Positions 9,105-32,612 of a stretch of DNA of 36,254 nt are shown in pieces (the stretch's first letter is position 1; every line of letters begins with the position of its first letter). Origin of the DNA: Bacteroidota bacterium (lineage in GTDB: Bacteria; Bacteroidota; Bacteroidia; Bacteroidales; Prolixibacteraceae); contig JAUYMU010000084.1 of assembly GCA_030698405.1 (NCBI GenBank), positions 1 through 36,254 on the forward strand. Reading direction: 5' to 3'. Under the pieces are notes generated by a model, which was not told the DNA's origin, did not search any database, and was given only the letters and a program-made list of their open reading frames with translations. Both the position numbers and the translations under genes were made by a program.

Positions 9105-9108
9105 CGCG

Positions 9109-9588
9109 CTATTTTTTTCGGTTTTCTTTAATCAGGTTAATCATAAAGTCAATATCAAAGTAGGCAATTAAACTACCACTTATAGGCAGAACCAGGTAAA
9201 CAACACCAAGGGGTAAGCCCATGGCTGCCGATTTTACAGAGAGATAAAACCGCGTATAGGCTAACCAGGCTCCTCCAATTACAAGGACAGAAACCGCAAA
9301 ACTGATAATCAAAACACTGATGATGATATCCAGTTTAAAACGTCGCTCAGGAGAACTTTTCTGATACAGCAGATCGATGGCCAGGTGCTCGCGTCGTCCA
9401 GCCACATAGGCAGCCCCCAGAAGACCCACCCAAATCAGCAGATAAGCTGCCAGTTCATCGGTAAAATTACTGGGCGAATTCATTATATAACGGCTGGCAA
9501 CCTGCCAAAGCACATCAATTACCAGAATACTCATCAGAAAGATAAGCGCCCACTCCAGCCCTTTTTCAATTATTTTTCGTATTGTCAT
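9109..9588 (-). CDS. dctQ: TRAP transporter small permease (DctQ type)
   Basis: A 159-residue membrane protein with four predicted helices, the standard size and topology of a DctQ subunit. Family features include the early WALIFLMSILVIDVLWQVASR and the segment LLIWVGLLGAAYVAGRREHL, matching the DctQ WxxxxGAxxAxrxxxHl pattern. It pairs with DctM in the inner membrane. Its start overlaps the end of dctP by 4 bases (9585-9588), and it ends 4 bp before dctM, so translational coupling is likely. Confidence 0.92.
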   Translation of the reverse strand: MTIRKIIEKGLEWALIFLMSILVIDVLWQVASRYIMNSPSNFTDELAAYLLIWVGLLGAAYVAGRREHLAIDLLYQKSSPERRFKLDIIISVLIISFAVSVLVIGGAWLAYTRFYLSVKSAAMGLPLGVVYLVLPISGSLIAYFDIDFMINLIKENRKK

Positions 9589-10580
9589 GGTTTAGTTTTT
9601 TTGTCAGCTGCCTGTATTCGTTTAATATAGGAATATATTTCAGGGTGGCTGCTGTAACTTTCAATCAGAGGTTGTACTTTATCAATAAAAGGTTGTTTAT
9701 CAGGATAATTGATCGCCACACCTGCTTTGGTCACCTCGCTTAGCGACAAAGCCTCCGATTCAGCCCAAAGTTTTCGCTGCAACACTGCCGACTCATCGGC
9801 TGCCTGCTGTAACCATTTCTGCTCTTGCCCGGATAACTTATCCCAGGTTTTTTGGCTGATAATAAGCACATCGGGAACGGTGGTATGCTCATCCATGGAA
9901 TAATATTTACAAACCTCGTAGTGACGCGAAGTGTAAAGGCTTGGAGGATTGTTCTCAGCGCCGTCAACCACGCCACTTTGCAAGGCTGTGTATAGCTCTC
10001 CATACGAAATCGGGGTAGCCGATCCGCCCAGAGCCTTGACCATCTCCATGGCTGTAATACTTTGCATCACCCGAATTTTCATTCCAGCCAAATCATCGGG
10101 ATGGTTGATGGGTTTGGACATTGTATAAAAACTTCGGGAACCCGCATCATAATAACACAGTCCGCGAATCCACTTATCCTTGGTACTCACCAACATGTCG
10201 TCACCGATTTCTCCGTCCAGCACCGTAAATAAATGCTCCTTGCTCCTGAAAATATAAGGAAGGCCAAAAACTTTGTATGCCTCGGCAAAACTTTCCATGG
10301 CAGCAGCCGAAACCTTGGTAATTGCAAGGCTGCCGATCTGTAATAGCTCAACACATTGTTGTTCAGAGCCTAACTGTCCGGCAGGATACACATCAATTTT
10401 TAATTTTCCGTCTGATAGTTCAGCTGTGCGTTCTGCCATAAAAACCATGGCATGGTGAACGGGATGGTCGGTTGGCAATCCATGGGCGAGTTTAAGTTCT
10501 CTACCTTCTTTTATTCCGCAGCCAGACAAACCTGCGAAAACAGCCAATATTAGAATTCCTTTAATTTTTAAATTTATCAT
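9585..10580 (-). CDS. dctP: TRAP transporter solute-binding lipoprotein (DctP type)
   Basis: A 331-residue extracytoplasmic binding protein. The signal sequence ends in lipobox LSGC (18-21), so it is probably a lipoprotein anchored at Cys21. The mature part has the DctP hallmarks: KLAHGLPTDHPVHHA, VYPAGQLGSEQQ, the carboxylate-binding region MKIRVMQS with Arg170, and DGAENNPP (Asn210/Asn211). Arg149 in GSRSFYT matches a second conserved arginine region. DctP proteins of this group bind acidic sugars or other carboxylates. A uronate substrate is inferred from the operon, since kdgA lies 12 bp upstream. A lipid anchor is less usual than a free periplasmic DctP. Confidence 0.92.
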   Translation of the reverse strand: MINLKIKGILILAVFAGLSGCGIKEGRELKLAHGLPTDHPVHHAMVFMAERTAELSDGKLKIDVYPAGQLGSEQQCVELLQIGSLAITKVSAAAMESFAEAYKVFGLPYIFRSKEHLFTVLDGEIGDDMLVSTKDKWIRGLCYYDAGSRSFYTMSKPINHPDDLAGMKIRVMQSITAMEMVKALGGSATPISYGELYTALQSGVVDGAENNPPSLYTSRHYEVCKYYSMDEHTTVPDVLIISQKTWDKLSGQEQKWLQQAADESAVLQRKLWAESEALSLSEVTKAGVAINYPDKQPFIDKVQPLIESYSSHPEIYSYIKRIQAADKKTKP

Positions 10581-10592
10581 TTAGGTTCAGTT

Positions 10593-11264
10593 TTAATTTC
10601 TGATTTTCCTGACAATGGCCAGCGCTTCACTGCATTTGGCCGAAATATAGCCAAAATCGCCCTTTTTCAATACATCGGCAGGAAAAAGCTGCGATCCGAT
10701 GCCAACGCAATGAACCCCGGCTTTAATCCATGTGGAAAGGTTCTCTTCATCAGGAGAAACTCCACCGGTAGGCATAATACTGCTCCAGGGCATTGGTCCC
10801 AGCACTGCTTTTACAAACTCGGGGCCTCCCACCTGCTGTCCGGGGAAGATCTTCACCACTTCGGCTCCAAGTTCATGTGCGCGGCCAATTTCGGTAACCG
10901 AACCGCAACCCGGACTCCACGAAACCTTGCGTTTATTACAAACACTGGACATTCCTTCGTCGATAAGCGGCGAAACAATGAAATTGGCGCCAAGTGCAAT
11001 ATACATCGAAGTTGTTCCGGCATCTACAACCGACCCGACCCCCATGATCATTTCGGGGCACTCTTTGGCCACCCATTTATTCACTTCAGCAAAAACAAGC
11101 GACGCGAAATCACCACGGTTGGTAAATTCAAATACGCGAATTCCGCCATCGTAGCAGGCTTTTACTACCTGTTTGCACAATTCGGTGTCACCATTGTAAA
11201 ACACCGGAACAATTCCGGTTTCTTTCATTTTCAATGCTACTTCTATTCTTGTAAATCTGGCCAT
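10593..11264 (-). CDS. kdgA: 2-keto-3-deoxy-6-phosphogluconate (KDPG) aldolase
   Basis: A 223-residue class I aldolase (Eda/KdgA family) that cleaves 2-keto-3-deoxy-6-phosphogluconate to pyruvate and glyceraldehyde 3-phosphate. The Schiff-base lysine is Lys138 in VVKIFPG, and the general acid/base Glu46 lies in VFEFTNRG. GVGSV (75-79), FIVSP (95-99) and the phosphate-binding PTGGV complete the TIM-barrel signature. It stands between kdgK and dctP on the minus strand. The 170-bp gap to kdgK is filled with AT-rich repeats, but no promoter was evident there, so it is probably part of the kdgK transcript. Confidence 0.95.
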   Translation of the reverse strand: MARFTRIEVALKMKETGIVPVFYNGDTELCKQVVKACYDGGIRVFEFTNRGDFASLVFAEVNKWVAKECPEMIMGVGSVVDAGTTSMYIALGANFIVSPLIDEGMSSVCNKRKVSWSPGCGSVTEIGRAHELGAEVVKIFPGQQVGGPEFVKAVLGPMPWSSIMPTGGVSPDEENLSTWIKAGVHCVGIGSQLFPADVLKKGDFGYISAKCSEALAIVRKIRN

Positions 11265-11434: not shown

Positions 11435-12466
11435 CTATCTTGCCACCCGACCGGAAGCATCGCCACCCATCAGCTTTTCAACTTCATCAACGGTAACCTG
11501 ATTGTAGTCGCCGTAAATCGTATGTTTCAGACAGGATGCAGCAACAGCAAAGTTCAGCGCTTTCTGGTCATCTTCGGTATAAGTAAGCAAACCATAAACG
11601 AGCCCGCCCATGAATGAATCGCCGCCACCAACACGGTCAACAATATCGGTAATCTGATAGGTTGGCGCTTCGTACAGCGTTTTTCCATCCCAAAGCACAC
11701 CCGACCAGCTGTTGTGATTGGCATTGATTGACCCACGCAAAGTAGTAATTACTTTTTTACAGCTCGGAAATTTGGCCATAATCTGTTTTGAAACAGATTC
11801 GTAAGCAGCAGCTTCAACATGACCGCCAGTTACATCAACGCCTTCAGGTTTAATTCCAAGTACTTTTTCGGCATCTTCCTCATTACCCAAAATCACATCT
11901 GTTCCGGCAACCAGTTCAGGCATTACCTCGCCAGCTTTTTTGCCGTAATTCCATAAATTTTTCCGGTAGTTCAAATCGCATGAAACAGTAATTCCCTTTT
12001 CGTTGGCTTTCTGAATGGCTTCCAGGCAAACATCGGCAGCTCCCTGCGAAATAGCAGGAGTAATTCCGGTCCAGTGAAACCAGTTAACACCTTCAAAAAC
12101 CTTGTCCCAGTCAATCATTCCTGACTTAATTTCAGAAATGGCTGAATGAGCACGGTCGTATACCACCTTGCTACCGCGACTTACAGCGCCGGTTTCAAGA
12201 AAATAAATTCCCAGACGTTCGCCGCCATAAACAATCTGATCCACTCCTACCCCGTATTTACGTAAATCCATTACACACGATTGTGCAATGTCATTTTTGG
12301 GCAGACGTGTCACAAAATCGACAGAAATACCAAAGTTTGCAAGCGAAACAGCTACATTGGCTTCGCCACCGCCGAAAGTTGCGGTTAAACTATTACTTTG
12401 ATTGAAACGCAAATAACCAGGAGTTGCCAGACGCAACATGATTTCTCCGAATGTAACTACTTTCAT
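11435..12466 (-). CDS. kdgK: 2-keto-3-deoxygluconate kinase (PfkB family)
   Basis: A 343-residue ribokinase-fold kinase that phosphorylates 2-keto-3-deoxygluconate (KDG) to KDPG. PfkB signature 1 is at FGGGEANVAVSLANFG (31-46). Signature 2 is DRVGGGDSFMGGLVYG, with catalytic base Asp283. The start MKVVTFGEIMLRLATPGYLR is typical of KdgK proteins. It is the first gene of the kdgK-kdgA-dctPQM transcription unit, with its own promoter and operator-like palindrome about 160-200 bp upstream. A second, divergent PfkB kinase lies at 17732-18805; this one is the more canonical KdgK. Confidence 0.93.
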   Translation of the reverse strand: MKVVTFGEIMLRLATPGYLRFNQSNSLTATFGGGEANVAVSLANFGISVDFVTRLPKNDIAQSCVMDLRKYGVGVDQIVYGGERLGIYFLETGAVSRGSKVVYDRAHSAISEIKSGMIDWDKVFEGVNWFHWTGITPAISQGAADVCLEAIQKANEKGITVSCDLNYRKNLWNYGKKAGEVMPELVAGTDVILGNEEDAEKVLGIKPEGVDVTGGHVEAAAYESVSKQIMAKFPSCKKVITTLRGSINANHNSWSGVLWDGKTLYEAPTYQITDIVDRVGGGDSFMGGLVYGLLTYTEDDQKALNFAVAASCLKHTIYGDYNQVTVDEVEKLMGGDASGRVAR

Positions 12467-12704: not shown

Positions 12705-14108
12705 TTAAAAATTAAAATAGTTTTTTGCATTGTTGAAACAGATATTCTCTACCATTTTACCCAATAATTCCATGTCGTTCGGAATTTCTCCGTTTTCCAC
12801 ATCATTTCCTAAAATATTGCAAAGGGTCCGGCGGAAATATTCATGACGGGTGTATGACAAAAAGCTCCTTGAATCGGTCAACATTCCAACAAACCGGCTC
12901 AGCAAACCAAGGTTCGACAAAGCGTTGATCTGTTTTTCCATGCCGTCTTTCTGATCCAGAAACCACCATCCGGAGCCCCACTGCATTTTTCCGGGAACGC
13001 TTCCATCCTGGAAGTTTCCGATCATGGTTGCATACAATTCGTTGTCCCTTGGATTCAGGTTGTACAATACCGTTTTGCATAGTTTGTCTTCCATGTCCAA
13101 TCGGTTCAGCAATTTTGATAACGGCTCAGCAACCGGTTTGTCGCCAATCGAGTCGAATCCTGTATCTGGTCCTAATTGATTATACAATCTTGTATTGTTA
13201 TTTCGCAATGCACCAATATGAAATTGCTGGGTCCATCCGCGGGAGTGATCCATCCGGCCAAATTCGTACAACATGCACGATTTAAACTTTAGTATTTCTC
13301 TTGAAGTAAGGCGGTAACCAATTCTAACTTTTATAAAAAGTGCATCAATTTCGTCGGAAGTATAATCGTCGGCAAAAGCGGTATCCAAACCATGATCCGA
13401 CAAACGGCAACCATTTTCGTGGAAATACTGATGACGTTTGTCCAAAGCTGCCATCAAATCAGGAAATGATTTAATTTCCATTTCAGCAACTTTTGCCAGT
13501 TGATTGATATACTCGTTGTACGAGATCGGATGTTCAACCATCATGGCTTTGTCAGGGCGCCAGGCAGGCAAAACCGCTACTTCAAAACCGTCAGCTTTAA
13601 TTTTCTGGTGATATTCGAGCAAATCAACCGGATCGTCGGTGGTGCAAATAGTATGCACATTGGCCATCCGGATAATATTGCGGCAACTGTATCCAGGAGT
13701 TTGCAGTTTTTCGTTGCAGGCATCGTAAATTGCACGTGCATTTTTCGGGCTTAAAACTTCATTAATTCCAAAGAATTTCTTCAATTCCAGATGAGTCCAG
13801 TGATACAATGGATTACGCAAAGTGTGAGGAACAGTTTCTGCCCACTTTTCGAACTTTTCCCAATCGCTGGCATCGCCGGTGCAATATTTTTCGGCCACCC
13901 CGTTGGTACGCATTCCGCGCCATTTATAATGATCACCAGCCAGCCATATTTCGGTAATAGTATTGAATTTCCGGTCGTCGGCAATATCTTTTGGGTTGAT
14001 GTGACAGTGGTAATCGAAGATGGGCATTTTGGCCGCATGTTCATGATACAATTTCTGCGCAGTTTGGGTTTGCAGCAGAAAATTCTCGTCCATAAATTTT
14101 TTCATCAT
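12705..14108 (-). CDS. uxaC: Glucuronate/galacturonate isomerase
   Basis: A 467-residue uronate isomerase that converts D-glucuronate to D-fructuronate and D-galacturonate to D-tagaturonate, the first cytoplasmic step. It has the family's usual length. The metal-site motif DYHCHI (32-37, His34/His36) and the start FMDENFLLQTQTAQKLYHEHA are characteristic. Further markers are HTICTTDDPVDLLEYH and DHGLDTAFAD. Met2 (14105) is an equally good start. The gene lies downstream of uxaE on the minus strand, separated by an 87-bp gap containing a long perfect hairpin (14128-14185). Confidence 0.96.
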   Translation of the reverse strand: MMKKFMDENFLLQTQTAQKLYHEHAAKMPIFDYHCHINPKDIADDRKFNTITEIWLAGDHYKWRGMRTNGVAEKYCTGDASDWEKFEKWAETVPHTLRNPLYHWTHLELKKFFGINEVLSPKNARAIYDACNEKLQTPGYSCRNIIRMANVHTICTTDDPVDLLEYHQKIKADGFEVAVLPAWRPDKAMMVEHPISYNEYINQLAKVAEMEIKSFPDLMAALDKRHQYFHENGCRLSDHGLDTAFADDYTSDEIDALFIKVRIGYRLTSREILKFKSCMLYEFGRMDHSRGWTQQFHIGALRNNNTRLYNQLGPDTGFDSIGDKPVAEPLSKLLNRLDMEDKLCKTVLYNLNPRDNELYATMIGNFQDGSVPGKMQWGSGWWFLDQKDGMEKQINALSNLGLLSRFVGMLTDSRSFLSYTRHEYFRRTLCNILGNDVENGEIPNDMELLGKMVENICFNNAKNYFNF

Positions 14109-14195: not shown

Positions 14196-15443
14196 TTACA
14201 AATTGAAGAGTCTCTTCAAATGTCGTTCGTAAATATTTTCTTCCACGCAGTTGCCAATCACATCAGCGTTTTTTTCCAGAAGGTCGGTGTAGGTTTTACC
14301 CATGTCGGCGGCCAATTTATATCCAACATGGATTAACTGACGCAAATTTGCATTGTAGTCCGGATGGCCGGGAATATGGCGCAATGTATTGGCAAATTTT
14401 TCGCTTGTCCAGCCGGCAACTTCTTCTGCTGAAGGAAGTTTCGAGTCATCAATATCAATTACATCGGCGTACGGGGCGCAAAGTTCAGTTTTATGAACCA
14501 ATGCTTTTGTATAAATATCTTTGGCAGCATCCAGTGCTTCACCGCCTGCAACTGCAAGTCCAATCACTTCTTCGAGCCAGGTTGTTCCGGCGGTTTTCAC
14601 ATGCAGACCTTTGTCATATTTCTTGATGATTCCAGCCATGATCGGATAAATGGTGAACTTATCACTTCCGGAATGAACGCTCAGCTTCAAATCTTCAGGA
14701 AGGCCAAATTCTTTCACCGCAAAGTCAATCACCAAAACATCCTCCTCAAATTCGCGGGCGAACTGATCAACATTTCCGATATAATCCACACCTTTATTAA
14801 AGCGTCCGGTAAATTTGGGTGCAATTGTTTGTGCCGGAACCCCTTTATCGGCCAACATTTTCAGGATAAAAAACAGATCGACTGGTGTTTGAGGAGTTTC
14901 TACTTCGTCCATTGAAACTTCTGTAATGAAATTACCTACACCTTTCTTTTCTTTCAGGAAACTATAAATTTCGGAAGCCTGTTTGGTTGCCGCTAAAAAT
15001 TTACCGGCAATAGCTACCAGCAGTTCTTCGGTTACTTCAATCGGATGATCAATTCCGGGGATAGAAAGTTTGCCCATGTATTTGCTGCACGAATCCACAA
15101 AAGCTTTTACTTCGGCTTCCGGACTTTCTTTTCCGATGAATGAAGCTACATCCAGCGTGAAAAAATCCGCTGTTTCAACAAACGGCGCTACCGTTCCCAG
15201 ATTAATATGGTCGGCATCAACGAAATATTTTCCGGAGAAACCCAGTGCGGCAACGGCAGCATCAGCCTCTTTTCTGACATCAGCCGGATGCGAATGAACA
15301 TAGATATGCTCGCGGTTCGACTTGTTCCAAACAGGACTAATGTCCAACCCGGTTTGATTGGCTTTTACAATTGCCCGCAACTGTGCAACGCCCTGGTGCG
15401 AAAACCTGTCACCAATTCCCAAACTAAATTTCCCTAATTGCAT
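14196..15443 (-). CDS. uxaE: Tagaturonate epimerase
   Basis: A 415-residue protein of the UxaE (tagaturonate/fructuronate 3-epimerase) family, known from Thermotoga-type hexuronate pathways. It interconverts D-tagaturonate and D-fructuronate, so that galacturonate carbon can enter the glucuronate branch without altronate enzymes. The opening MQLGKFSLGIGDRFSHQGVA and the segments VHSHPADVRKEADAAV, FTGRFNKGVDYIGNV and SVHSGSDKFTIYP fit the family. Being next to uxaC supports the assignment. It is divergent from lacI, and two operator-like palindromes lie between them. I cannot name the catalytic metal ligands with certainty. Confidence 0.85.
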   Translation of the reverse strand: MQLGKFSLGIGDRFSHQGVAQLRAIVKANQTGLDISPVWNKSNREHIYVHSHPADVRKEADAAVAALGFSGKYFVDADHINLGTVAPFVETADFFTLDVASFIGKESPEAEVKAFVDSCSKYMGKLSIPGIDHPIEVTEELLVAIAGKFLAATKQASEIYSFLKEKKGVGNFITEVSMDEVETPQTPVDLFFILKMLADKGVPAQTIAPKFTGRFNKGVDYIGNVDQFAREFEEDVLVIDFAVKEFGLPEDLKLSVHSGSDKFTIYPIMAGIIKKYDKGLHVKTAGTTWLEEVIGLAVAGGEALDAAKDIYTKALVHKTELCAPYADVIDIDDSKLPSAEEVAGWTSEKFANTLRHIPGHPDYNANLRQLIHVGYKLAADMGKTYTDLLEKNADVIGNCVEENIYERHLKRLFNL

Positions 15444-15486: not shown

Positions 15487-15500
15487 CGTGTACGGACACG
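15487..15500. promoter_or_regulatory. LacI-type operator candidate O1
   Basis: CGTGTACGGACACG is an inverted repeat CGTGT-N4-ACACG, extended as CCGTGT..ACACGA. It lies 44 bp upstream of the uxaE start. On the minus strand a near -7 box (TATTTTCG, one mismatch to TAnnTTTG) abuts it, so binding would cover the uxaE start region. Confidence 0.6.
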
Positions 15501-15575: not shown

Positions 15576-15589
15576 CGTGTTCGTACACG
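15576..15589. promoter_or_regulatory. LacI-type operator candidate O2
   Basis: CGTGTTCGTACACG is the second copy of CGTGT-N4-ACACG, 89 bp from O1, and shares the flanks TCC and A. It lies 19 bp upstream of the lacI -7 box, covering the -33 region, so it could mediate autoregulation and, with O1, a repression loop. Confidence 0.62.
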
Positions 15590-15644: not shown

Positions 15645-16715
15645 TTGAATATTATTAAAGCAATTAACCGCACACGAATCAAAGATATTGCACAAAAGGC
15701 AAATGTTTCAATAGGAACTGTTGACCGTGTAATTCACAATCGGGGCGAAGTTTCAAATGCAACACGCGATCGAATTCTTAGGATTATTGATGAAATGGAA
15801 TATCAGCCAAATTTAATGGCAAGTACGCTGGCATCAAAAAAAACATTCTCGTTTGCATTGCTTCTTCCTGAACCAATTTCTCCGGAATCATACTGGAATA
15901 AACCGATGGTTGGCGTTCGGAGGGCATTTCAGGAAATTCAGCAATATGGAATCAATATAAACATTCACCTTTTCAAACAATCTGATGCAAATACTTTCAA
16001 TACCGAAGCCGGAAAAATTATTGACAGCAATCCTGAAGGAGTAGTTCTGGCGCCATTCTTTTCACGCGAGTCGAAGGAATTTATTTCAGAACTAAAAAAG
16101 CGTGCTATTCCTTATGTATTTATTGATTCGAACATTAAAGACAGTGATAAATTAAGTTACATCGGACAGAATTCTTTTCAATCGGGAACTTTGGCGGCCA
16201 AATTGCTCGATTTTTCCGTTCCTGAAAATTCATCCATATTGGTTTTGCATTTTGCCAAAGAAAGAGACAACATGAACCATCTGGTGCAAAGAGAGAAAGG
16301 GTTTTATGAATATTTCAATACAAATTTATCTTCAGGAAAAAAGAAACTGATCACACTTGAAATATCTGACCCAACCGACATTGCCTGTCAAAATCAAATA
16401 ACAGATCAATTAAAATCTAATCCCGAAATCAAGGGCATTTTTGTTACCAATTCGCAGGTTTATTACCTCGCCCGATTAATTGAGGGAACCAATATTTCAG
16501 GAATACGTGTAATTGGACACGACTTGATTAATGAAAACATCGATTTTCTGAAGAAAGGAATTGTTGATTTTTTGATTTGCCAGCGCCCTGAAGAACAAGG
16601 ATACAAGGCAATCATCACGCTTTTCGAACATTTGGTACTGAAAAAAGAAGTGAACAATGAAAATTACACTTCGATTGATATTATAACCAAAGAAAATCTG
16701 GACTATTATAAATAA
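15645..16715 (+). CDS. LacI-family transcriptional regulator
   Basis: A 356-residue regulator with a LacI helix-turn-helix (residues 12-31: IKDIAQKANVSIGTVDRVIH), a hinge region up to about 60 and a periplasmic-binding-protein-like effector domain (from about 68, FSFALLLPEPISPESYW). The start codon is TTG. It is chosen because the HTH begins 11 residues later and no ATG lies upstream of it. Two CGTGT-N4-ACACG palindromes precede it. It stands between the two arms of the uronate locus and is followed after 15 bp by the fructuronate reductase gene, so it most likely senses a uronate intermediate and controls both arms. The effector is inferred. Confidence 0.9.
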   Translation: MNIIKAINRTRIKDIAQKANVSIGTVDRVIHNRGEVSNATRDRILRIIDEMEYQPNLMASTLASKKTFSFALLLPEPISPESYWNKPMVGVRRAFQEIQQYGININIHLFKQSDANTFNTEAGKIIDSNPEGVVLAPFFSRESKEFISELKKRAIPYVFIDSNIKDSDKLSYIGQNSFQSGTLAAKLLDFSVPENSSILVLHFAKERDNMNHLVQREKGFYEYFNTNLSSGKKKLITLEISDPTDIACQNQITDQLKSNPEIKGIFVTNSQVYYLARLIEGTNISGIRVIGHDLINENIDFLKKGIVDFLICQRPEEQGYKAIITLFEHLVLKKEVNNENYTSIDIITKENLDYYK

Positions 16716-16730
16716 CTAAATAATAAGAAT

Positions 16731-17582
16731 ATGAATCCAATCAGTTTTAGTGACCTTAGCGGTAAAGTATGTGTAATAACCGGCGGTGCAGGTGTTATCG
16801 GTTCAGCAATGGTAAAAGCAATGGCCTCGGTTGGGGTGAAAATTGCGATTGCCGATATCAATAAAGACATTGCTGAAAAAGTAGCTGCCGAAATCTCGAA
16901 AGAGTTTAATTCAGAAGTTATTGGCGTTGAAGCCAACGTACTCGATAAAGAATCATTGATTAAAGCGAAGAAAATCATCAACGAAAAACTCGGGGACATC
17001 GATTTGCTGATTAACGGTGCAGGTGGAAACCACCCCACTGCAACAACAAAAGTGGAGCAAATGAATGAAGCCAGCCTCGATCATCTGGAAGATACTTTCT
17101 ACGGACTGGAAATGGATGGTTTCGACAAGGTTTTTGCGCTAAACTTCAAAGGAACTTTGCTTCCGTCAATGGTATTTACTACCGACATGCTGAAAAATAA
17201 AAAGGGTGTAGTCCTGAATGTTTCTTCAATGAATTCGTACAAACCATTGACAAAAATTCCAGCTTATTCGGCGGCAAAAGCGTCGGTGAATAACTTTACC
17301 GAATGGTTGGCCGTACACTTGGCTAAAGTTGGAATTCGCGTTAATGCCGTTGCTCCCGGTTTTTTCATCACCGACCAGAACCGCTTTTTGGTTCTTGATA
17401 AGGAAACCGGCAATTTCTCTGCCCGTGGACAAAAAATTGTGAACAACACTCCAATGGGCAAATTCGGCGAACCCGAAGATTTACAGGGCGCTACTCTGTT
17501 CCTCCTTTCTGATGTTTCGTCTTTCGTTACCGGAATCGTAATCCCGGTTGACGGCGGATACAGCGCTTTTGGAGGAGTTTAG
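16731..17582 (+). CDS. uxuB: SDR-type fructuronate reductase (D-mannonate oxidoreductase)
   Basis: A 283-residue short-chain dehydrogenase. The Rossmann motif is TGGAGVIG (17-24), followed by NGAGG (95-99), the catalytic serine in SSMNSY (about 165-166) and the YxxxK pair Tyr179/Lys183 (YSAAK). Its length and opening (FSDLSGKVCVITGGAGVIG) match the SDR-type UxuB group, which reduces D-fructuronate to D-mannonate with NAD(P)H, rather than the shorter KduD. It is unrelated to the long-chain UxuB of E. coli. It is probably co-transcribed with lacI, 15 bp upstream. The exact substrate is inferred from the neighbours uxaC and uxaE. Confidence 0.82.
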   Translation: MNPISFSDLSGKVCVITGGAGVIGSAMVKAMASVGVKIAIADINKDIAEKVAAEISKEFNSEVIGVEANVLDKESLIKAKKIINEKLGDIDLLINGAGGNHPTATTKVEQMNEASLDHLEDTFYGLEMDGFDKVFALNFKGTLLPSMVFTTDMLKNKKGVVLNVSSMNSYKPLTKIPAYSAAKASVNNFTEWLAVHLAKVGIRVNAVAPGFFITDQNRFLVLDKETGNFSARGQKIVNNTPMGKFGEPEDLQGATLFLLSDVSSFVTGIVIPVDGGYSAFGGV

Positions 17583-17717
17583 GAGCCCCTCCCCAACCCT
17601 CCCCAAAGGGGAGGTCTTAAAACCGCACAGTTTCAGAGACTTTGCATAAAAGAGAAAATATTATGAACATGCACCGCCTAAAGTCTCCCCTTGTGGGGGA
17701 GATTTAGAGGGGGCTTT
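17583..17717. repeat. CCCC/GGGG palindromic repeat, inverted pair C/D
   Basis: Unit C (17583-17621, GCCCCTCCCC...CCCCAAAGGGGAGGTCTTAAA) begins directly after the uxuB stop codon. Unit D (17679-17717, AAAGTCTCCCC...GGGGGAGATTTAGAGGGGGC) is its inverted partner. A 57-bp core lies between. It fills the uxuB-kinase gap. Confidence 0.75.
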
Positions 17718-17731
17718 TAAATTATTAAACC

Positions 17732-18805
17732 ATGGAATTAAAAAAAGACTTTAAATATTCCCTGTTGGTGGCAACCAGCATGGGTGTTCGCATTACTCCG
17801 GTTAACGGACAACCGGTTCACAGCAGTAACCTTTTCGAAATGCAGGCTACAAGCGCCGAAACTAATGTTGCAAACATCTCCTCATCACTTGGACTTCCGG
17901 TTAAAGTACTGACTACCTTCGTAAAAGATAGTCCAATCGCGCTGTTTATTAAAAGTAGTCTTCGTAGCCGAAATATGGATTACGAAGGCCCGGAAGTTGC
18001 TCAGGGCGATCCATGGGGTTACCGCCACCAGTTCAACATTGCCGACAGTGGCTTTGGAACCCGCGGCCCACGCGTACAAAACGACCGTGCCGGCGAAGTT
18101 GGCCGGACTTTGAATGTGAAAGATTTCGATCTGGAACGTATATTTGGCAAAGAAGGTGTTCAGATTGTTCACCTTTCAGGATTGATTGGAGCTTTGTCTC
18201 CTGAAACCACAACTTTTTGTCTTGAAATTGCACGCGCAGCAAAAAAATACGGAACACGCATTTCCTTCGACCTGAATTACCGCGCTTCGTTCTGGAAAGG
18301 CCGCGACAAAGAATTACGCGAAAGTTTTACTGAAATTGCTTCGGTAGCCGATATCCTGATTGGCAATGAAGAAGATTTTCAGCTTTGTTTGGGTATTCAG
18401 GGACCGGAAGCTGGTGGCAAAGGTATTGAAGCCGAAATTGATGGATTCAAAGGAATGATCAACCGTGTAAAGGAAGCTTTCCCAAATGCTTCGGTATTTG
18501 CGACTACTTTGCGTCAGGTAATCAGCGCCAACGAACACCTTTGGGGCGCTATCATGCTCGAAGGGAACGAATGGCAGGTCATCGAACCACGCAAAATTAC
18601 CGTTCTCGATCGCATCGGCGGTGGTGACGGTTTTGTAGGCGGTTTGCTTTATGGTATCCTGAAAGGTTGGGAACCTGAAAAATGGCCGCAATTTGGCTGG
18701 GCAACCGGCGCATTGGCAACTACATTCCTTACCGACTACGCCCAACCTGCCGACGAAGACATGGTTTGGAGCATCTGGGGCGGAAATGCCCGCGTTAAGC
18801 GGTAA
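17732..18805 (+). CDS. PfkB-family sugar or sugar-acid kinase
   Basis: A 357-residue ribokinase-fold kinase. The C-terminal signature DRIGGGDGFVGGLLYG carries catalytic Asp299, and the sheet region SFDLNYRASFWKG is typical of KdgK-like kinases. It shares the GGGDxFxGGLxYG core with KdgK at 11435-12466 but is clearly divergent elsewhere: a longer substrate lid (about 90-125, with GFGTRGPRVQNDRAGE) and no FGGGEAN motif. It may be a second KDG kinase or act on a related acid such as gluconate; the sequence does not decide. It lies between the fructuronate reductase and the LarA-family gene on the same strand. Confidence 0.85.
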   Translation: MELKKDFKYSLLVATSMGVRITPVNGQPVHSSNLFEMQATSAETNVANISSSLGLPVKVLTTFVKDSPIALFIKSSLRSRNMDYEGPEVAQGDPWGYRHQFNIADSGFGTRGPRVQNDRAGEVGRTLNVKDFDLERIFGKEGVQIVHLSGLIGALSPETTTFCLEIARAAKKYGTRISFDLNYRASFWKGRDKELRESFTEIASVADILIGNEEDFQLCLGIQGPEAGGKGIEAEIDGFKGMINRVKEAFPNASVFATTLRQVISANEHLWGAIMLEGNEWQVIEPRKITVLDRIGGGDGFVGGLLYGILKGWEPEKWPQFGWATGALATTFLTDYAQPADEDMVWSIWGGNARVKR

Positions 18806-18814
18806 TGATTTTTT

Positions 18815-18882
18815 CTATGTGTCCTATGTGCCTATGTGGTTCAAAAAAATATATAAACACATAGACACATAGGGCACAATAG
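18815..18882. repeat. CTATGTGCC palindromic repeat, copy 2 (kinase-larA gap)
   Basis: The left arm 18815-18841 (CTATGTGTCCTATGTGCC...) and right arm 18855-18882 (...GACACATAGGGCACAATAG) form an imperfect inverted repeat around an AT-rich loop, occupying nearly the whole intergenic gap. Confidence 0.8.
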
Positions 18883-18904
18883 TTTTAACCTTAAAAATAA
18901 AGAT

Positions 18905-20194
18905 ATGCTTTATTACGAAATAGGTTCAGTAAACAACGAATTAAGCCCTGAAGATCTGAGAGTTGGTCTATATCAGGCATTAATAAAGCTGGGGCCACGA
19001 AAGAAAGTACTGGCGATTCCGCCGGATTATACACGTTTGCCAAGTCGTGCCGGTGAATTAACCGAAATGACCTGGAATTTTTATGGCGATGCGTTAACAG
19101 ACGTTTTGCCAGCATTGGGAACTCACACACCAATGACCGACCGTCAGATCAGTCACATGTTCGGTGCCATGCCTGCATCACTTATCCGCGAGCACGACTG
19201 GCGCAACGATGTGGTGACAGTTGGAACTGTTCCTGCCGAATTCGTCAAAGAAGTTTCGGGCGGAGCTGTTGAGTTTCCATGGCCTGCACAGGTCAACAAA
19301 TTGCTGATTGAAGGCAATTTCGACCTGATTTTGTCGATTGGGCAGGTTGTTCCGCACGAAGTAGTGGGAATGGCCAACTACAACAAGAATATTTTCGTCG
19401 GAACAGGCGGAGTTGAAGGCATCAACAAAAGCCATTTCGTGGGCGCAGCCTACGGAATGGAGAAAATGATGGGTCATGCCGACACTCCTGTTCGCCGCAT
19501 TTTCAATTATGCTTCGGATAATTTCACCAACCACATGCCAATTGTTTACGTGCAAACGGTAGTTGGTCTGGATAAAGCCGATGGCAAAATTAAAACCCGC
19601 GGATTGTATATCGGCGACGATTTTGAAGTGTTCGACAAAGCTGCCAAACTGGCTTTGCTGGTGAACTTCGAAATGTTGGAAAAACCGCTGAAAAAAGTGG
19701 TGGTTTATCTTGATCCTACCGAATTTAAAAGTACATGGCTGGGCAACAAATCAATTTACCGCACCCGCATGGCTATCGACGATGATGGCGAACTGATTGT
19801 TTTGGCTCCTGCCCTGAAAGAGTTCGGCGAAGACAAGGAAATCGACCGTCTGATCCGCAAATACGGTTACTTCGGAACTCCGGCAACTTTGAAATTTTGC
19901 GATGAAAACGAAGAACTTCGCAACAATCTGAGCGCCGCAGCTCATCTCATTCACGGCTCTTCGGAAGGACGTTTCAATATAACCTATTGCCCCGGAAAAG
20001 GATCGGAAAACCTGACACAGGCTGAAATTGAAAGTGTTGGCTTTAAATACGCCGACATTGACGAAGTAACTGCCAAATATGATCCGGCCAAACTGCGCGA
20101 TGGGTACAATGTGATGGACAACGGAGAGGAAATATTCTACATTTCGAATCCGGCATTGGGTTTATGGGCATTTAAAGAAAGGTTCAAATACTAA
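18905..20194 (+). CDS. LarA-family nickel-pincer hydroxyacid racemase/epimerase
   Basis: A 429-residue protein of the lactate racemase LarA family (DUF2088 plus C-terminal domain). The residues that define the active site line up with L. plantarum LarA. PDYTR holds Asp41/Arg44, ALGTHTPMT holds His74 (as His108), and VPHEVVGM holds His151 (as His174). Lys161 is exactly 10 residues later (as Lys184, which tethers the nickel-pincer nucleotide), and His177 lies at +26 (as His200, the nickel ligand). Characterised homologues racemise or epimerise 2-hydroxyacids, including D-gluconate at C2. Here a sugar acid such as mannonate or gluconate is the likely substrate, by context. The cofactor genes larB, larC and larE are not in the window. 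Confidence 0.86.
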   Translation: MLYYEIGSVNNELSPEDLRVGLYQALIKLGPRKKVLAIPPDYTRLPSRAGELTEMTWNFYGDALTDVLPALGTHTPMTDRQISHMFGAMPASLIREHDWRNDVVTVGTVPAEFVKEVSGGAVEFPWPAQVNKLLIEGNFDLILSIGQVVPHEVVGMANYNKNIFVGTGGVEGINKSHFVGAAYGMEKMMGHADTPVRRIFNYASDNFTNHMPIVYVQTVVGLDKADGKIKTRGLYIGDDFEVFDKAAKLALLVNFEMLEKPLKKVVVYLDPTEFKSTWLGNKSIYRTRMAIDDDGELIVLAPALKEFGEDKEIDRLIRKYGYFGTPATLKFCDENEELRNNLSAAAHLIHGSSEGRFNITYCPGKGSENLTQAEIESVGFKYADIDEVTAKYDPAKLRDGYNVMDNGEEIFYISNPALGLWAFKERFKY

Positions 20195-20197
20195 GAG

Positions 20198-20386
20198 AAG
20201 CCCCTCTAGATCTCCCCGAAGGGGAGACTTTGAAGAAGCCTCGTTCCCTGCCATTCCATGCTAGAGAAGGGAACTAGGCTTTGATAAATTATAAAATTTT
20301 GATTTAGAATAAACGGCGTAAATGATAAAGCATAAATCATCCCATACCGATTCTTTCTCCCCTCCTTTGGAGGGGCAGGGGGAGGC
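20198..20386. repeat. CCCC/GGGG palindromic repeat, inverted pair E/F
   Basis: Unit E (20198-20233, AAGCCCCTCTAGATCTCCCCGAAGGGGAGACTTTG) begins just after the larA-like stop. Unit F (20357-20386, CTCCCCTCCTTTGGAGGGGC and GGGGGAGGCT) is inverted and lies inside the following ORF. The core contains another small hairpin (GTTCCCTGCC...AGGGAAC, about 20243-20276). Confidence 0.7.
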
Positions 20387-21383
20387 TCGCTGGGGAATAA
20401 TTGGCTGTGGCAATGTGACCGAACTAAAGAGTGGTCCAGCTTTTAATAAGGTGGAACATTCCAGATTGGTCGCCGTGATGCGCCGAAATGCTGCTTTGGC
20501 TCAGGATTATGCAGAGCGGCATGGCGTTCCTAAATGGTATTCCGATGCAAATCAGCTCATCAACGATCCGGAGGTAAATGCAGTTTACATTGCTACCCCA
20601 CCCGACACCCATGCATCGTATGCAATTGCGGCAATGAAAGCCGGAAAGCCGGTTTATGTGGAAAAACCAATGGCCCGGAATTATCAGGAATGCAAAGAGA
20701 TGATCCGCGTGTCGGAAGAAACCGGAATGCCTTTGTTTGTAGCCTATTATCGTCGCACGCTTCCGGCTTTTCTGAAAGTAAAAGAGCTGGTTGACAATGG
20801 AATCATTGGAAAACCGTTGACTGTAAATATTCGGTTACACAAATCTTCCGGAGAAAAGGACCAGTTTCCTGAGATGCAATCCTGGCATATTAATCCGGAG
20901 ATTGCCGGAGGCGGGTATTTTTTCGATCTGGCTTCTCACCAGTTGGATTACCTCGATTTTTTGTTTGGCCCGATAGTGCAAGTGCATGGAATAGCTGTCA
21001 ATCAGGCCGGTTATTACAAAGCCGAAGATACGGTTACCGGAACATTTCTGTTTGGAAACGGTGTAATTGGAACCGGAAGCTGGTGTTTTGTGGTTTCAAA
21101 AGGAAGCGAAGAAGACATTATTGAGATTTCGGGAACCAAGGGAAAACTCAGCTTTTCCAGCTTTCAGCATGGCGATGTAAAACTTACCACCCCTGACGGA
21201 ACGGTTAGCTTCAGTTCCCAAAATCCTGAAAATATTCAACATTATCTGATTGATCAGGTTGTAAAAACATTAGAAGGAAAAATCGAATGCGTGAGTACTG
21301 GAAAAACAGCCGCCCGAACCAGTTGGGTTTTAGAAGAGATAGTTAAAGAATATTATAAAAAAATTAACCACATAGGCACATAG
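20322..21383 (+). CDS. Gfo/Idh/MocA-family oxidoreductase
   Basis: A 353-residue NAD(P)-dependent oxidoreductase. The Rossmann motif is GIIGCGNV at residues 25-32, followed by the family marker YVEKPMA (Lys in EKP). The C-terminal alpha/beta domain has SWHINPEIAGGGYFFDLASH, with the GG-x-DxGxH-like metal/substrate region. The usual N-terminus would be MRWGIIGCGNV. Here the start codon is lost and the frame opens upstream at 20322, so about 23 extra residues (ending SPPLEGQGEAR) are encoded partly by repeat unit F. The substrate is unknown, perhaps a sugar or sugar acid given the locus. The true start is uncertain. Confidence 0.86.
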   Translation: MIKHKSSHTDSFSPPLEGQGEARWGIIGCGNVTELKSGPAFNKVEHSRLVAVMRRNAALAQDYAERHGVPKWYSDANQLINDPEVNAVYIATPPDTHASYAIAAMKAGKPVYVEKPMARNYQECKEMIRVSEETGMPLFVAYYRRTLPAFLKVKELVDNGIIGKPLTVNIRLHKSSGEKDQFPEMQSWHINPEIAGGGYFFDLASHQLDYLDFLFGPIVQVHGIAVNQAGYYKAEDTVTGTFLFGNGVIGTGSWCFVVSKGSEEDIIEISGTKGKLSFSSFQHGDVKLTTPDGTVSFSSQNPENIQHYLIDQVVKTLEGKIECVSTGKTAARTSWVLEEIVKEYYKKINHIGT

Positions 21384-21433
21384 AACACATTAGAAAAAAT
21401 TTAAAAACTATGTGACCAATGTGCCTATGTGGT
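21367..21433. repeat. CTATGTGCC palindromic repeat, copy 3
   Basis: Left arm ACCACATAGGCACATAGAAC begins at 21367, and the right arm 21408-21433 ends in TGCCTATGTGGT. The stem is imperfect and the loop AT-rich. It begins inside the last codons of the oxidoreductase gene and ends at the start region of the GxxExxY gene. Same orientation as copy 4. Confidence 0.82.
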
Positions 21434-21446
21434 AAAAAAAAACAAC

Positions 21447-21872
21447 ATGATACCAGAATTAATTACACAAAAGTATGTCAACGAGATAAGCCATGCTATA
21501 ATTGGATACGCTATCGAAGTACACAAAGAACTTGATCCCTGTTTACTGGAAAGCATCTATGAAAAATGTCTGACTCATTTGTTACAAATTAATGGATACA
21601 CAGTTTTAAGACAGCAAACTATTCCGATCAATTTTCGTGGCCTCAATCTCGATTGTGGTCTTCGCTTTGACATGCTGGTAAATGATTTGGTGATTGTTGA
21701 ATTAAAAACCGTTGAATCGTTTGTTGCAATTAATGAAACACAATTGCTTTCCTATTTAAAGCTTTTAAAGAAGCCGAAAGGAATTCTGATCAACTTTAAT
21801 TGCATTAATATTTTCAAAGAAGGTCAAAAAACATTTGTCACAGATCATTTCAGACGTTTACCAATCGAATAG
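21447..21872 (+). CDS. GxxExxY protein (putative PD-(D/E)XK fold)
   Basis: A 141-residue protein of the GxxExxY family, recognised by IIGYAIEVHKELDPCLLESI followed by YEKCL, and by QLLSYLKLLKKPKGILINF. The middle has LRFDMLVNDLVIVELKTVE, a D...ExK arrangement as in PD-(D/E)XK nucleases. Activity in this family is unproven. A GTG at 21429 gives 6 more residues but lies in the repeat arm (ATGTGGT), so the ATG at 21447 is preferred. The gene is flanked by two like-oriented copies of the CTATGTGCC repeat and is unrelated to the metabolic genes around it, which suggests insertion as a small cassette. Confidence 0.85.
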   Translation: MIPELITQKYVNEISHAIIGYAIEVHKELDPCLLESIYEKCLTHLLQINGYTVLRQQTIPINFRGLNLDCGLRFDMLVNDLVIVELKTVESFVAINETQLLSYLKLLKKPKGILINFNCINIFKEGQKTFVTDHFRRLPIE

Positions 21873-21885
21873 AATATTTAAAAAT

Positions 21886-21950
21886 CACACAGACACCTAA
21901 ACACAATAGAATAGATAAAAAAACTATGTGCCCTATGTGCCTATGTGGTT
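21886..21950. repeat. CTATGTGCC palindromic repeat, copy 4
   Basis: The left arm 21886-21909 (CACACAGACACCTAAACACAATAG, degenerate) and right arm 21924-21950 (CTATGTGCCCTATGTGCC...GGTT) form an imperfect hairpin. It lies between the GxxExxY gene and pdxB. In-frame codons through its right arm explain the spurious upstream start of pdxB. Confidence 0.8.
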
Positions 21951-21963
21951 CAACTATAAGACT

Positions 21964-23091
21964 ATGAAGATTATTATCGACGATAAAATACCCTATATCA
22001 GTGGTGCTTTTGAAGGTGTTGCCGAGGTGGTTTATCTGCCCGGATCAAAAACAACTCCGGAAGTGGTAAAAGATGCCGACGCGATTGTTACCCGAACCCG
22101 AACCATCTGCAACGAGAAATTGCTTGCCGGTTCATCGGTCAAATTCATTGCCACAGCAACCATTGGTTACGACCACATCGATACCGATTATTGCGATGCC
22201 GCCGGGATCAGATGGACAAATGCTCCGGGCTGCAACAGTAAATCGGTGGAACAGTACATTGCATCCACGCTCATGGTTTTGGCAGAACAGAAAAATCTGG
22301 ACATAAAAGACTTGTGCATCGGGGTGGTTGGTGTCGGAAACGTGGGTAGCAAAGTGACCCGCATTTGCGATTTATTTGGCATGAAAGTTTTGCTGAACGA
22401 CCCGCCACGTGAACGCGCTGAAGGTTCGTCCGCTTTTTCCAGCCTGAAACAAGTGATGGACGAAGCCGATATTATTACACTGCATGTTCCCCTGAATTTG
22501 AAAGGAGAAGATGCTACTTTCCATCTGGGCGATGAAGCTTTCTTTGCTGATTTAAAACGAAAACCGATTCTGATTAACTCTTGCCGCGGTGAAGTGGTCG
22601 ATACAATTTCAGTAAAAGCTGCTTTGAATAACGGACAAATTTCAGGATTTGTATGCGACTGCTGGGAAAATGAACCAGACATAGATTTGGAATTGCTGGC
22701 AATGACCGAAATTGCAACGCCGCACATTGCAGGCTACTCAAAAGACGGGAAAGCCACCGGAACACAAATGAGCGTTCAGTCAATCAGCCAATTCTTCCAT
22801 CTTGGACTGGACAACTGGCAACCTTCAGGAGTAGAACTTCCGGCAAACCCTGTTTTTGAACTGGATGGCGCTGGATTGAACGAACAGAAAGTCATTGCCA
22901 AAGTTATTTTGCATACCTACGATATCCGGAATGACGATCAGGATTTCAGGAAAAACACAGCACAATTCGAACAATTACGAGGAGATTACCCTGTTCGCAG
23001 AGAGTTTCCTGCATTTACGATTGTTCCGAAAAATATTGGAGAAGAAACTTTGGAAGTATTGCGAAAACTAGGGTTTAGAAGCCTCCCCTAA
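21964..23091 (+). CDS. pdxB: Erythronate-4-phosphate dehydrogenase
   Basis: A 375-residue D-2-hydroxyacid dehydrogenase that oxidises 4-phosphoerythronate in pyridoxal 5'-phosphate synthesis. The start MKIIIDDKIPYI is the canonical PdxB start; the in-frame ATG at 21928 lies in repeat copy 4 and is rejected. RTRT (44-47), the NAD motif VGVVGVGNVGSK (119-130), NSCRGEVVD and HIAGYSKDGK (catalytic His) are all present. The C-terminal part with HTYDIRNDD corresponds to the PdxB-specific dimerisation domain. The last codons (RSLP) and the TAA stop come from GC-rich repeat unit G, so the natural C-terminus may have been altered by a few residues. Confidence 0.93.
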   Translation: MKIIIDDKIPYISGAFEGVAEVVYLPGSKTTPEVVKDADAIVTRTRTICNEKLLAGSSVKFIATATIGYDHIDTDYCDAAGIRWTNAPGCNSKSVEQYIASTLMVLAEQKNLDIKDLCIGVVGVGNVGSKVTRICDLFGMKVLLNDPPRERAEGSSAFSSLKQVMDEADIITLHVPLNLKGEDATFHLGDEAFFADLKRKPILINSCRGEVVDTISVKAALNNGQISGFVCDCWENEPDIDLELLAMTEIATPHIAGYSKDGKATGTQMSVQSISQFFHLGLDNWQPSGVELPANPVFELDGAGLNEQKVIAKVILHTYDIRNDDQDFRKNTAQFEQLRGDYPVRREFPAFTIVPKNIGEETLEVLRKLGFRSLP

Positions 23092-23187
23092 CCCCTCCGA
23101 AGGAGGGGAACAAAAGCGTTCTTAAATAAAAAAAAGTTCAAAATCAAAGCGGCTCTAAAGTCCCCCTTCGGGGGATTTAGGGGGCTA
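23078..23187. repeat. CCCC/GGGG palindromic repeat, inverted pair G/H
   Basis: Unit G (23078-23110, GAAGCCTCCCCTAACCCCTCC...GGAGGGGAA) overlaps the last codons and stop of pdxB. Unit H (23156-23187, TAAAGTCCCCCTTCGGGGGATTTAGGGGGCT) is inverted and ends 17 bp before gnd. The core between them is 45 bp and A-rich. Confidence 0.78.
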
Positions 23188-23203
23188 ATAATTTAAATTT
23201 ATT

Positions 23204-24658
23204 ATGAAAAAATTAGCAGACATTGGATTAATCGGTCTAGCCGTAATGGGCGAAAACCTGGTATTAAACATGGAAAGCAAAGGCTTTACCGTTGGTGTTT
23301 TTAACCGCACAGTTGCCCGTGTTGACGAGTTTATGGCTGGTCGCGGCGCTGGAAAAAATTTCATCGGAGCGCATTCGATTGAAGAATTGTGCGCTTCGCT
23401 GGAAAAACCCCGCAAAGTGATGATGCTTGTAAAAGCCGGAAAACCAGTGGATGATTTCATCGAACTGATTATTCCTCACCTCGAAGAAGGCGATATCATC
23501 ATCGATGGCGGAAACTCGCATTTTCCTGACACGATTCGCCGTGTCAAATATGTTGAAAGTAAAGGTTTATTGTACATCGGAACCGGCGTTTCGGGTGGCG
23601 AAGAAGGCGCTTTACTCGGGCCATCAATCATGCCAGGCGGTTCACCTGCCGCATGGCCAGCCGTAAAAGATATTTTCCAGGCAATTTCGGCCAAAGTTGA
23701 AGACGGCTCACCTTGCTGCGACTGGGTTGGCGAAGGTGGCGCGGGTCACTTCGTAAAAATGGTTCACAACGGTATCGAATATGGCGATATGCAGATTATC
23801 TGCGAAGCCTATCAGTTGATGAAAGAAATGCTGGGACTGAGCGCTGACGAAATGCACGATGTTTTCAAAAAATACAATGAAGGCGATCTGGATTCGTACC
23901 TGATTGAAATTACCCGCGACATTCTTGGTTTCAAAGATGAAGATGGCGAACCGATGGTTGAAAAAATTCTCGACACTGCCGGACAAAAAGGTACCGGAAA
24001 ATGGACTGCTGTTTCAGCCCTCGACCTTGGAATTCCCTTGACATTGATCGGTGAATCTGTATTTGCACGTTGCCTGTCAGCGCAAAAAGACATGCGTGTT
24101 GAGGCTTCCAAAGTAATCAGCGGACCGGCTGTCGATAAAACCATCGACAAAGCTCAGATGATTTCAGACCTGAAAGACGCGTTGTTCGGAGCCAAAATAA
24201 TTTCGTATGCTCAAGGCTACAATCTGATGATGGAAGCTGCCAAAGAATACGGCTGGAACCTGAATTACGGCGGCATTGCTTTGATGTGGCGTGGTGGTTG
24301 CATCATTCGTTCAAGGTTCCTGGGAGATATCAAAATTGCATTCGACAAAAACCCGGAATTATCAAACTTGCTGCTTGATCCACACTTTAAAGAAATCGTT
24401 GAAAAAGCACAGGCTGGATGGCGTCGTGTTTGCGCAACAGCCCTGACCAACGGAATTCCGGTTCCTGCTTTGACTTCAGCGCTTTGTTACTTCGACGGAT
24501 TGCGCAGCGAACGTTTGCCAGCTAACCTGCTGCAGGCTCAACGCGACTATTTCGGTGCACACACTTACGAACGCATTGACAAACCTCGTGGCGAATTCTT
24601 CCACACCAACTGGACTGGAAGAGGCGGAGACACGACTTCGAGAACGTATGTAGTATAA
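23204..24658 (+). CDS. gnd: 6-phosphogluconate dehydrogenase, decarboxylating
   Basis: A 484-residue full-length enzyme that converts 6-phosphogluconate to ribulose 5-phosphate and CO2 with NADP(+). Signatures include GLAVMGENL (11-19), IIDGGNSHFPDTIRR, the 6PGDH motif VSGGEEGALLGPSIMPGG, catalytic GHFVKMVHNGIEYGDMQ and QKGTGKWT. The C-terminal YFGAHTYERIDKPRGEFFH is typical. It is the last plus-strand gene of the locus and is closed by a strong terminator. Its presence beside uronate and LarA-family genes is unusual enough to consider a link between aldonate breakdown and the pentose phosphate pathway. Confidence 0.97.
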   Translation: MKKLADIGLIGLAVMGENLVLNMESKGFTVGVFNRTVARVDEFMAGRGAGKNFIGAHSIEELCASLEKPRKVMMLVKAGKPVDDFIELIIPHLEEGDIIIDGGNSHFPDTIRRVKYVESKGLLYIGTGVSGGEEGALLGPSIMPGGSPAAWPAVKDIFQAISAKVEDGSPCCDWVGEGGAGHFVKMVHNGIEYGDMQIICEAYQLMKEMLGLSADEMHDVFKKYNEGDLDSYLIEITRDILGFKDEDGEPMVEKILDTAGQKGTGKWTAVSALDLGIPLTLIGESVFARCLSAQKDMRVEASKVISGPAVDKTIDKAQMISDLKDALFGAKIISYAQGYNLMMEAAKEYGWNLNYGGIALMWRGGCIIRSRFLGDIKIAFDKNPELSNLLLDPHFKEIVEKAQAGWRRVCATALTNGIPVPALTSALCYFDGLRSERLPANLLQAQRDYFGAHTYERIDKPRGEFFHTNWTGRGGDTTSRTYVV

Positions 24659-26852: not shown

Positions 26853-26856
26853 ATTT

Positions 26857-31943: not shown

Positions 31944-31974
31944 ACAGAAAAATTTATCCACTAAAAAAAATAAA

Positions 31975-32541: not shown

Positions 32542-32612
32542 AACGAACATGCCACCGAAATAAACACTTCGGACTCCTGACTCCGAACTTCAAACTTCAA
32601 ACTTTTCAAAAC

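Follow-up and report, generated by a model that had tools for sequence, protein, structure and literature searches.

Positions 1 to 36,254 of contig JAUYMU010000084.1 (GenBank assembly GCA_030698405.1), here called the window, derive from a bacterium of the Prolixibacteraceae (Bacteroidales) and contain a gene cluster with two divergent arms. The minus-strand arm covers uronate isomerization and the 2-keto-3-deoxygluconate (KDG) side, and the plus-strand arm extends from lacI to gnd and includes larA, the gene of a putative hexonate epimerase with a nickel-pincer nucleotide (NPN) cofactor. The genes that would together form a route from uronates to the pentose phosphate pathway, with their predicted functions, are:

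15645..16715, plus strand: LacI-family regulator with a periplasmic-binding-protein-like sensor domain (PF00356, PF13407)
16731..17582, plus strand: D-mannonate oxidoreductase of the short-chain dehydrogenase/reductase (SDR) type, a fructuronate reductase in the role of UxuB (NF006132, 371 bits, cut-off 281)
17732..18805, plus strand: diverged PfkB kinase (pfkB2), a proposed hexonate 6-kinase (PF00294)
18905..20194, plus strand: LarA-family (group 18) putative hexonate 2-epimerase (NF052594, 652.4 bits, cut-off 500; Pfam Lar_N, 29.2 bits, cut-off 23.3)
23204..24658, plus strand: 6-phosphogluconate dehydrogenase, gnd (TIGR00873, 760 bits)
14196..15443, minus strand: tagaturonate epimerase UxaE (PF16257)
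12705..14108, minus strand: glucuronate isomerase UxaC (PF02614, NF002794)
11435..12466, minus strand: canonical KDG kinase, kdgK1 (match to the KDG kinase 2afb)
10593..11264, minus strand: 2-keto-3-deoxy-6-phosphogluconate/2-keto-4-hydroxyglutarate (KDPG/KHG) aldolase (NF005499, 361 bits, cut-off 275)

A preliminary description, made from the DNA letters, had named the reductase, the PfkB kinase, the LarA-family protein and gnd in the plus-strand arm. Open frames were confirmed at all four positions, and the reductase, the kinase and gnd matched the family models given above, the reductase above the cut-off of its 'D-mannonate oxidoreductase' model. The observation that the window is devoid of a mannonate dehydratase also held, with no UxuA match among the 27 main frames searched with NCBIfam models, of which 19 were searched with Pfam models too; the search did not extend to shorter or overlapping frames.

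The window LarA is by score a member of NF052594 (NPN_18_hexonate, 'nickel-dependent putative hexonate epimerase'). The family name carries the word 'putative': PMC7583248 hypothesizes that group 18 acts on hexonates, and its table of tested proteins lists no group-18 member. The same source gives, in LarA numbering, D72, H108, H174 and K298 as catalytic and R75, K184 and H200 as NPN-binding residues. The corresponding D41, H74, H151, K282, R44, K161 and H177 of the window protein (alignments with 4nar and 2yjg) are invariant in 109 of 109 orthologs, and four of them, His74, His151, Lys161 and His177, are those already singled out as nickel-pincer residues, a reading borne out by the 2yjg alignment. 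The best sequence match in the Protein Data Bank is 4nar (E 5e-34), the D-gluconate 2-epimerase GntE2 of Thermotoga maritima (PMC7583248); as the nearest solved relative, it substantiates the earlier remark that characterized LarA homologs include such an epimerase. The predicted fold was likewise closest to 4nar, and 4nar, 2yjg and 5huq were within the top 19 Foldseek matches, all LarA-like (E 1e-23 to 3e-10), with TM-scores of only 0.5–0.65 and a model pLDDT of 77.9 that falls below 50 in the active-site loops. The signature described for groups 18–20, a loop E followed by V or S and a W in alpha-11 (PMC7583248), appears together with the catalytic K as E152, V153, W278 and K282, invariant in all 109 orthologs. 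Two of the four GntE2 specificity positions E155, S156, G286 and N348 (PMC7583248) are kept, E155 as E152 (109/109) and N348 as N341 (105/109, beside an alignment gap). By family, context and most of the predicted pocket signature, the window protein looks like a GntE-type epimerase with one clear difference. A closely related LarA, 97% identical, is encoded in another Prolixibacteraceae bacterium (L025), and Sunxiuqinia elliptica also has an ortholog.

The synteny counts are based on 80 related larA loci from named genomes, at least three of which (L036, L056, L081) duplicate panel genomes; one comparison used a selection of 50 of the 80 from which the majority of same-genus loci had been excluded. 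The kinase gene is located upstream of larA in 74 of the 80 loci, at a distance of up to 700 bases in 73 of them and of 2 kb in the other. Where the sequence extends 1300 bases or more upstream of larA, 69 of 70 loci have the kinase gene, and where it extends 5 kb or more downstream, gnd follows in 50 of 51. This kinase-larA-gnd arrangement exceeds chance. Among 41 relatives including this genome, gnd over the cut-off was present in 27 of 27 larA carriers versus 2 of the 14 relatives without larA (Fisher test, p 1e-8); larA is present in 21 of 23 same-genus genomes, the remaining two being 66 and 76% complete. The co-occurrence of the three genes in related genomes, raised in the preliminary description as a question, proved to be widespread. 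A wider panel of the order comprised 58 larA carriers (56 over the cut-off, together with a split gene in G285 and a partial one in G177), and the neighbors were examined in 43. Here the PfkB kinase stood beside larA in 20 loci, and in 10 a PfkA-type (pyrophosphate-dependent phosphofructokinase-like) kinase with an odd HAD protein directly preceded larA in its place (L128:5677-7904, L137:9386-11615 and eight other loci), so that the slot is occupied by either a PfkB or a PfkA-type kinase in 30 of 43.

Two further loci were encountered. A contig titled uncultured Phycisphaerales (L099) bears a kinase-larA pair 87 and 81% identical to that of the window, with gnd not nearby, owing either to transfer or to a mis-binned contig. 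In the distant locus L163:275-7281, a larA (49% identical) forms a row with putative uxaC, kdgK and eda genes, a PP-loop gene resembling larE, a further gene and larC, of which larC was identified by a match.

The kinase pfkB2 reached the cut-off of none of the 13 NCBIfam models that it matched, including NF041633 (170.6 bits, cut-off 700) and NF052444 (29.6 bits, cut-off 400), and the canonical kdgK1 likewise remained under these two cut-offs with 505.8 and 53.2 bits. In the match to the T. maritima KDG kinase 2afb, kdgK1 reached 340 bits versus 106 for pfkB2. The predicted fold of pfkB2 (pLDDT 81) is KDG-kinase-like, and its nearest match is the KDG kinase of T. maritima, to which the protein is 24% identical. 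The residues G33, G34 and Y103 of kdgK1 orthologs, a sugar-site glycine pair and a tyrosine which we take to contact the substrate, are replaced by S41, A42 and N117 in pfkB2, while the DR and N-R arginine motifs and GGGD are retained (90 vs 29 sequences compared). By score and motifs pfkB2 is not a standard KDG kinase, and the replaced residues together with the retained motifs and fold suggest a sugar-acid kinase with a substrate other than KDG. A literature search retrieved no hexonate 6-kinase activity for the PfkB-family fold. As to the gluconate kinase that the preliminary description proposed to look for, a GntK-type kinase (TIGR01313) over the cut-off was found in none of the 41 relatives, this genome included; the result agrees with a role for pfkB2 in that description's route, and it is weak because T. 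maritima, the proposed bearer of a gluconate kinase, also gave no match as the control, and the FGGY type was not searched.

The cofactor genes whose presence had been put forward as a check on the LarA activity are available to this bacterium: larE, larC and larB lie together elsewhere in the genome (L113:6705-9704), downstream of nadA.

The intergenic region before lacI contains the palindrome CGTGTNCGNACACG twice:

15487..15500, no strand assigned: palindromic putative operator, copy 1, CGTGTACGGACACG (exact match to CGTGTNCGNACACG)
15576..15589, no strand assigned: palindromic putative operator, copy 2, CGTGTTCGTACACG (match to CGTGTNCGNACACG)

All 13 aligned regions from the same genus have both copies. 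They are the only sites in the window at up to two mismatches; since 8 of 100 shuffles also gave at least two, the argument rests on the conservation of the palindrome and not on the count. Of 163 loci, 68 contain an exact CGTGTNCGNACACG, including overlapping copies of one place. The site was absent upstream of uxuA in this genome (up to three mismatches, L004:8623 to 9541) and was not found upstream of the larE operon. From position and symmetry we infer that the LacI-family protein binds the two palindromes.

Taken together, the divergent cluster is probably a catabolic regulon for uronates, as sugar acids of plant cell walls, in which larA, the kinase gene and gnd constitute a branch from mannonate to ribulose 5-phosphate, with the epimerase acting first. 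Both arms would probably be controlled by one LacI repressor. UxaC and UxaE would feed fructuronate, which the SDR protein would reduce to D-mannonate, and at mannonate the flow would split. One branch would lead through UxuA, where present, KDG kinase and KDPG aldolase to pyruvate and glyceraldehyde phosphate. In the other, LarA would invert C2 of the hexonate with the help of the nickel-pincer cofactor and the diverged PfkB kinase would phosphorylate the hexonate at C6; in the favored order, mannonate is epimerized to gluconate and a gluconate kinase activity of pfkB2 follows. Gnd would then decarboxylate 6-phosphogluconate to ribulose 5-phosphate, returning reduced nicotinamide cofactor. 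This net route, as outlined in the preliminary description, is likely in view of larBCE and of the co-occurrence of kinase, larA and gnd; that description is partly supported, being qualified by a uxuA elsewhere in the genome and by a gnd in single copy.

Several findings weigh against the route. The genome does encode one full-length uxuA (G000:C48:21565-22746, 401.8 bits; TIGR00695, 494.8 bits), preceded by a glycanase-like gene and followed by a beta-hydroxyaspartate-dehydratase-like gene. An adjacent or co-regulated uxuA elsewhere had been named beforehand as evidence that would tell against the shunt, and the presence of this uxuA does so in part, tempered by the lack of the palindromic site. 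In addition, uxuA lies inside the operon in 17 of the 80 related loci (15 of the 57 whose upstream sequence reaches 5 kb or more). This genome has a single gnd and, at another place, a single zwf, and the two genes also track each other; the position of gnd may therefore reflect the ordinary needs of the oxidative pentose phosphate pathway. Two of the four GntE2 specificity positions differ in the window LarA, with V153 for S156 (inside the published V/S range) and N281 for G286. Neither a kinase nor the HAD protein stands beside larA in 10 of the 43 order-panel loci, and in 3 the HAD protein stands there alone, two of these being cut near the contig end. Lastly, larC over the cut-off is missing from 27 of the 58 larA carriers of the order.

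The distribution of uxuA qualifies the first of these points. Full-length uxuA is present in 10 of the 23 same-genus genomes, nine of them larA carriers, so that 12 of the 21 same-genus larA carriers are without it, as are 26 of the 38 high-quality larA-bearing genomes of the order. These counts drop partial or paralogous matches (G199, G222 and G031 in the order panel, G005 and G031 among the relatives) and keep the uxuA of G007, which is cut by a contig end. We also considered LarA as a plain replacement of uxuA and rejected it: among the 41 relatives, 12 larA carriers have and 15 lack a full-length uxuA, and the occurrence of uxuA inside the operon in part of the loci shows that LarA does not simply substitute for it. 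Nor do the two genes exclude each other in the order, where a weak positive association was seen instead (19/58 vs 60/335, p 0.013). The net route likely does not depend on the absence of uxuA. A function of gnd specific to the shunt was rejected, as the sole copy, in a genome with zwf, must serve the ordinary pathway too. A zwf-gnd pair was seen at G016:C305:3659-6549 and at G035:C67:1935-4886, in G016 in addition to the gnd of the cluster.

Two other explanations of the plus-strand arm were weighed. The genes may not form a shunt at all, with LarA acting on another sugar acid, the PfkB protein being a second keto-acid kinase and gnd just an ordinary 6-phosphogluconate dehydrogenase. The uxuA gene of this genome and those in some operons, where they lie between the reductase and PfkB kinase genes, would fit such an arrangement, as would the single gnd next to a genomic zwf, the modelled kinase fold nearest to KDG kinase, and the absence of group 18 from the proteins tested in PMC7583248. 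A second keto-acid kinase would, however, duplicate the canonical KDG kinase of the minus-strand arm, and it would have lost G33, G34 and Y103 of the kdgK1 orthologs while keeping the DR and N-R arginines; the many larA carriers without full-length uxuA argue in the same direction. We regard this explanation as improbable.

Somewhat less improbable, though still unlikely in our view, is a shunt with the two middle steps reversed, in which the PfkB protein is a D-mannonate 6-kinase and LarA a 6-phosphomannonate 2-epimerase yielding 6-phosphogluconate. For Lactobacillus suebicus, where the genes are not known, experiments with cell extracts demonstrated precisely this order (PMC6978723). The kinase gene of the cluster is located between those of the reductase and LarA, and the invariant H350 and R356 of the window LarA, aligned with N355 and T361 of GntE2, could suit a phosphate group. 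Gene order, however, does not fix the order of reactions. The hexonate-acting LarA proteins described in PMC7583248 and PMC11770544 were assayed on free mannonate or gluconate, and two of the GntE2 specificity positions are conserved, with a third differing inside the published range, which favors the epimerase-first order.

The missing larC genes deserve separate consideration. No larC over the cut-off was detected in 19 of the 38 high-quality genomes of the order with a group-18 larA (in the panel counts, G166, with a LarC-like match of 75.7 bits under the cut-off, was taken as larC-less), nor in two cultured isolates with larA (L102, L104). Cultured strains in which no larC was detected include Draconibacterium aestuarii and Maribellus sediminis. 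In the 41 relatives larE tracks larC, and the larC-less larA carriers there are also without larE; the larE of G014 is a fragment (119 bits). LarA from larC-less genomes kept all examined cofactor residues (59/59), and no alignment column separates it from LarA of larC-bearing genomes. The median dN/dS of larA was 0.031 within six larC-less and 0.038 within twelve larC-bearing same-genus genes, rough values from 18 of the 21 same-genus larA genes at a dS near 1.2, and they roughly indicate purifying selection in the six larC-less cases. Decay of larA where larC is missing is not supported by these similarly low values and the undivided alignment. Compensation by uxuA was rejected as well, with uxuA in 8 of 19 larC-less versus 4 of 19 larC-bearing high-quality genomes (p 0.30). 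Among the papers listed by literature searches, none was seen to treat the salvage of NPN or larA genes unaccompanied by larBCE; the opposite case, larBCE genes with larA missing, is known from PMC11796402. As a tentative proposal, which we consider possible rather than probable, group-18 LarA might be active in many Bacteroidales without the known LarB-LarC-LarE synthesis, drawing on a cofactor or late precursor imported from other bacteria, on other enzymes or on another cofactor form, and working with a hexonate 6-kinase of the PfkB family or, in some lineages, of the PfkA type with the HAD protein. Should the nickel-pincer cofactor truly be in use in the larC-less carriers, they would have to share it or synthesize it in a way not described in the literature found. 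The conservation of LarA in genomes missing these cofactor genes is the most interesting finding of the analysis and merits the attention of specialists.

The remaining genes of the two arms are:

20322..21383, plus strand: Gfo/Idh/MocA oxidoreductase, present in part of the related loci only (PF01408)
21429..21872, plus strand: GxxExxY protein, sporadic among relatives and probably outside the pathway (TIGR04256)
21928..23091, plus strand: 4-phosphoerythronate dehydrogenase PdxB (NF001309, 456 bits, cut-off 434)
7641..10580, minus strand: TRAP transporter with large permease, small permease and DctP binding protein (TIGR00786; NF007374, below cut-off; TIGR00787)

The pdxB gene frequently intervenes between larA and gnd in related loci, with no evident reason in the pathway. 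Histidine degradation genes adjoin the cluster (a formiminotransferase-cyclodeaminase fusion and imidazolonepropionase, 25173-28104), and a propeller-type sensor histidine kinase of 1142 aa, a cupin protein and a FIST-domain protein follow in a row at 28515-33767.

Among known systems, the classical UxuA-KdgK-Eda route has UxaC, the reduction of fructuronate, KDG kinase and the aldolase in common with the window, but it requires a mannonate dehydratase, which is encoded here elsewhere in the genome and without the palindrome. The L. suebicus pathway, by mannonate kinase and 6-phosphomannonate 2-epimerase, joins an upper galacturonate-isomerase route to 6-phosphogluconate and is redox-neutral to ribulose 5-phosphate; it differs by its kinase-first order, by a phosphoketolase below and by having no known genes (PMC6978723). 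The closest counterpart is the uronate route of T. maritima (Rodionova 2012, as reported in PMC7583248 and PMC6978723), which runs from mannonate through gluconate and 6-phosphogluconate into the pentose phosphate pathway with GntE2 (LarA group 20) and a gluconate kinase. The activity of GntE2 on D-mannonate was assayed and shown in 2020 (PMC7583248), and UxaE, encoded in the minus-strand arm of the window, comes from Rodionova 2012 as well (via PMC7583248 and PMC6978723). The window differs by a LarA of group 18 instead of 20, with N281 for G286, by a diverged PfkB kinase where T. maritima has the gene called gntK, by its Bacteroidales host and by the palindromic site found here. The route proposed for the window is therefore essentially the published T. 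maritima proposal and not new in kind, here with a diverged PfkB kinase. It provides gene candidates for a branch from mannonate to 6-phosphogluconate of which the epimerase has been assayed from Thermotoga and the activities have been observed without genes in Lactobacillus, and relatives of these candidates are present in named strains of Sunxiuqinia, Mangrovibacterium, Draconibacterium and Maribellus.

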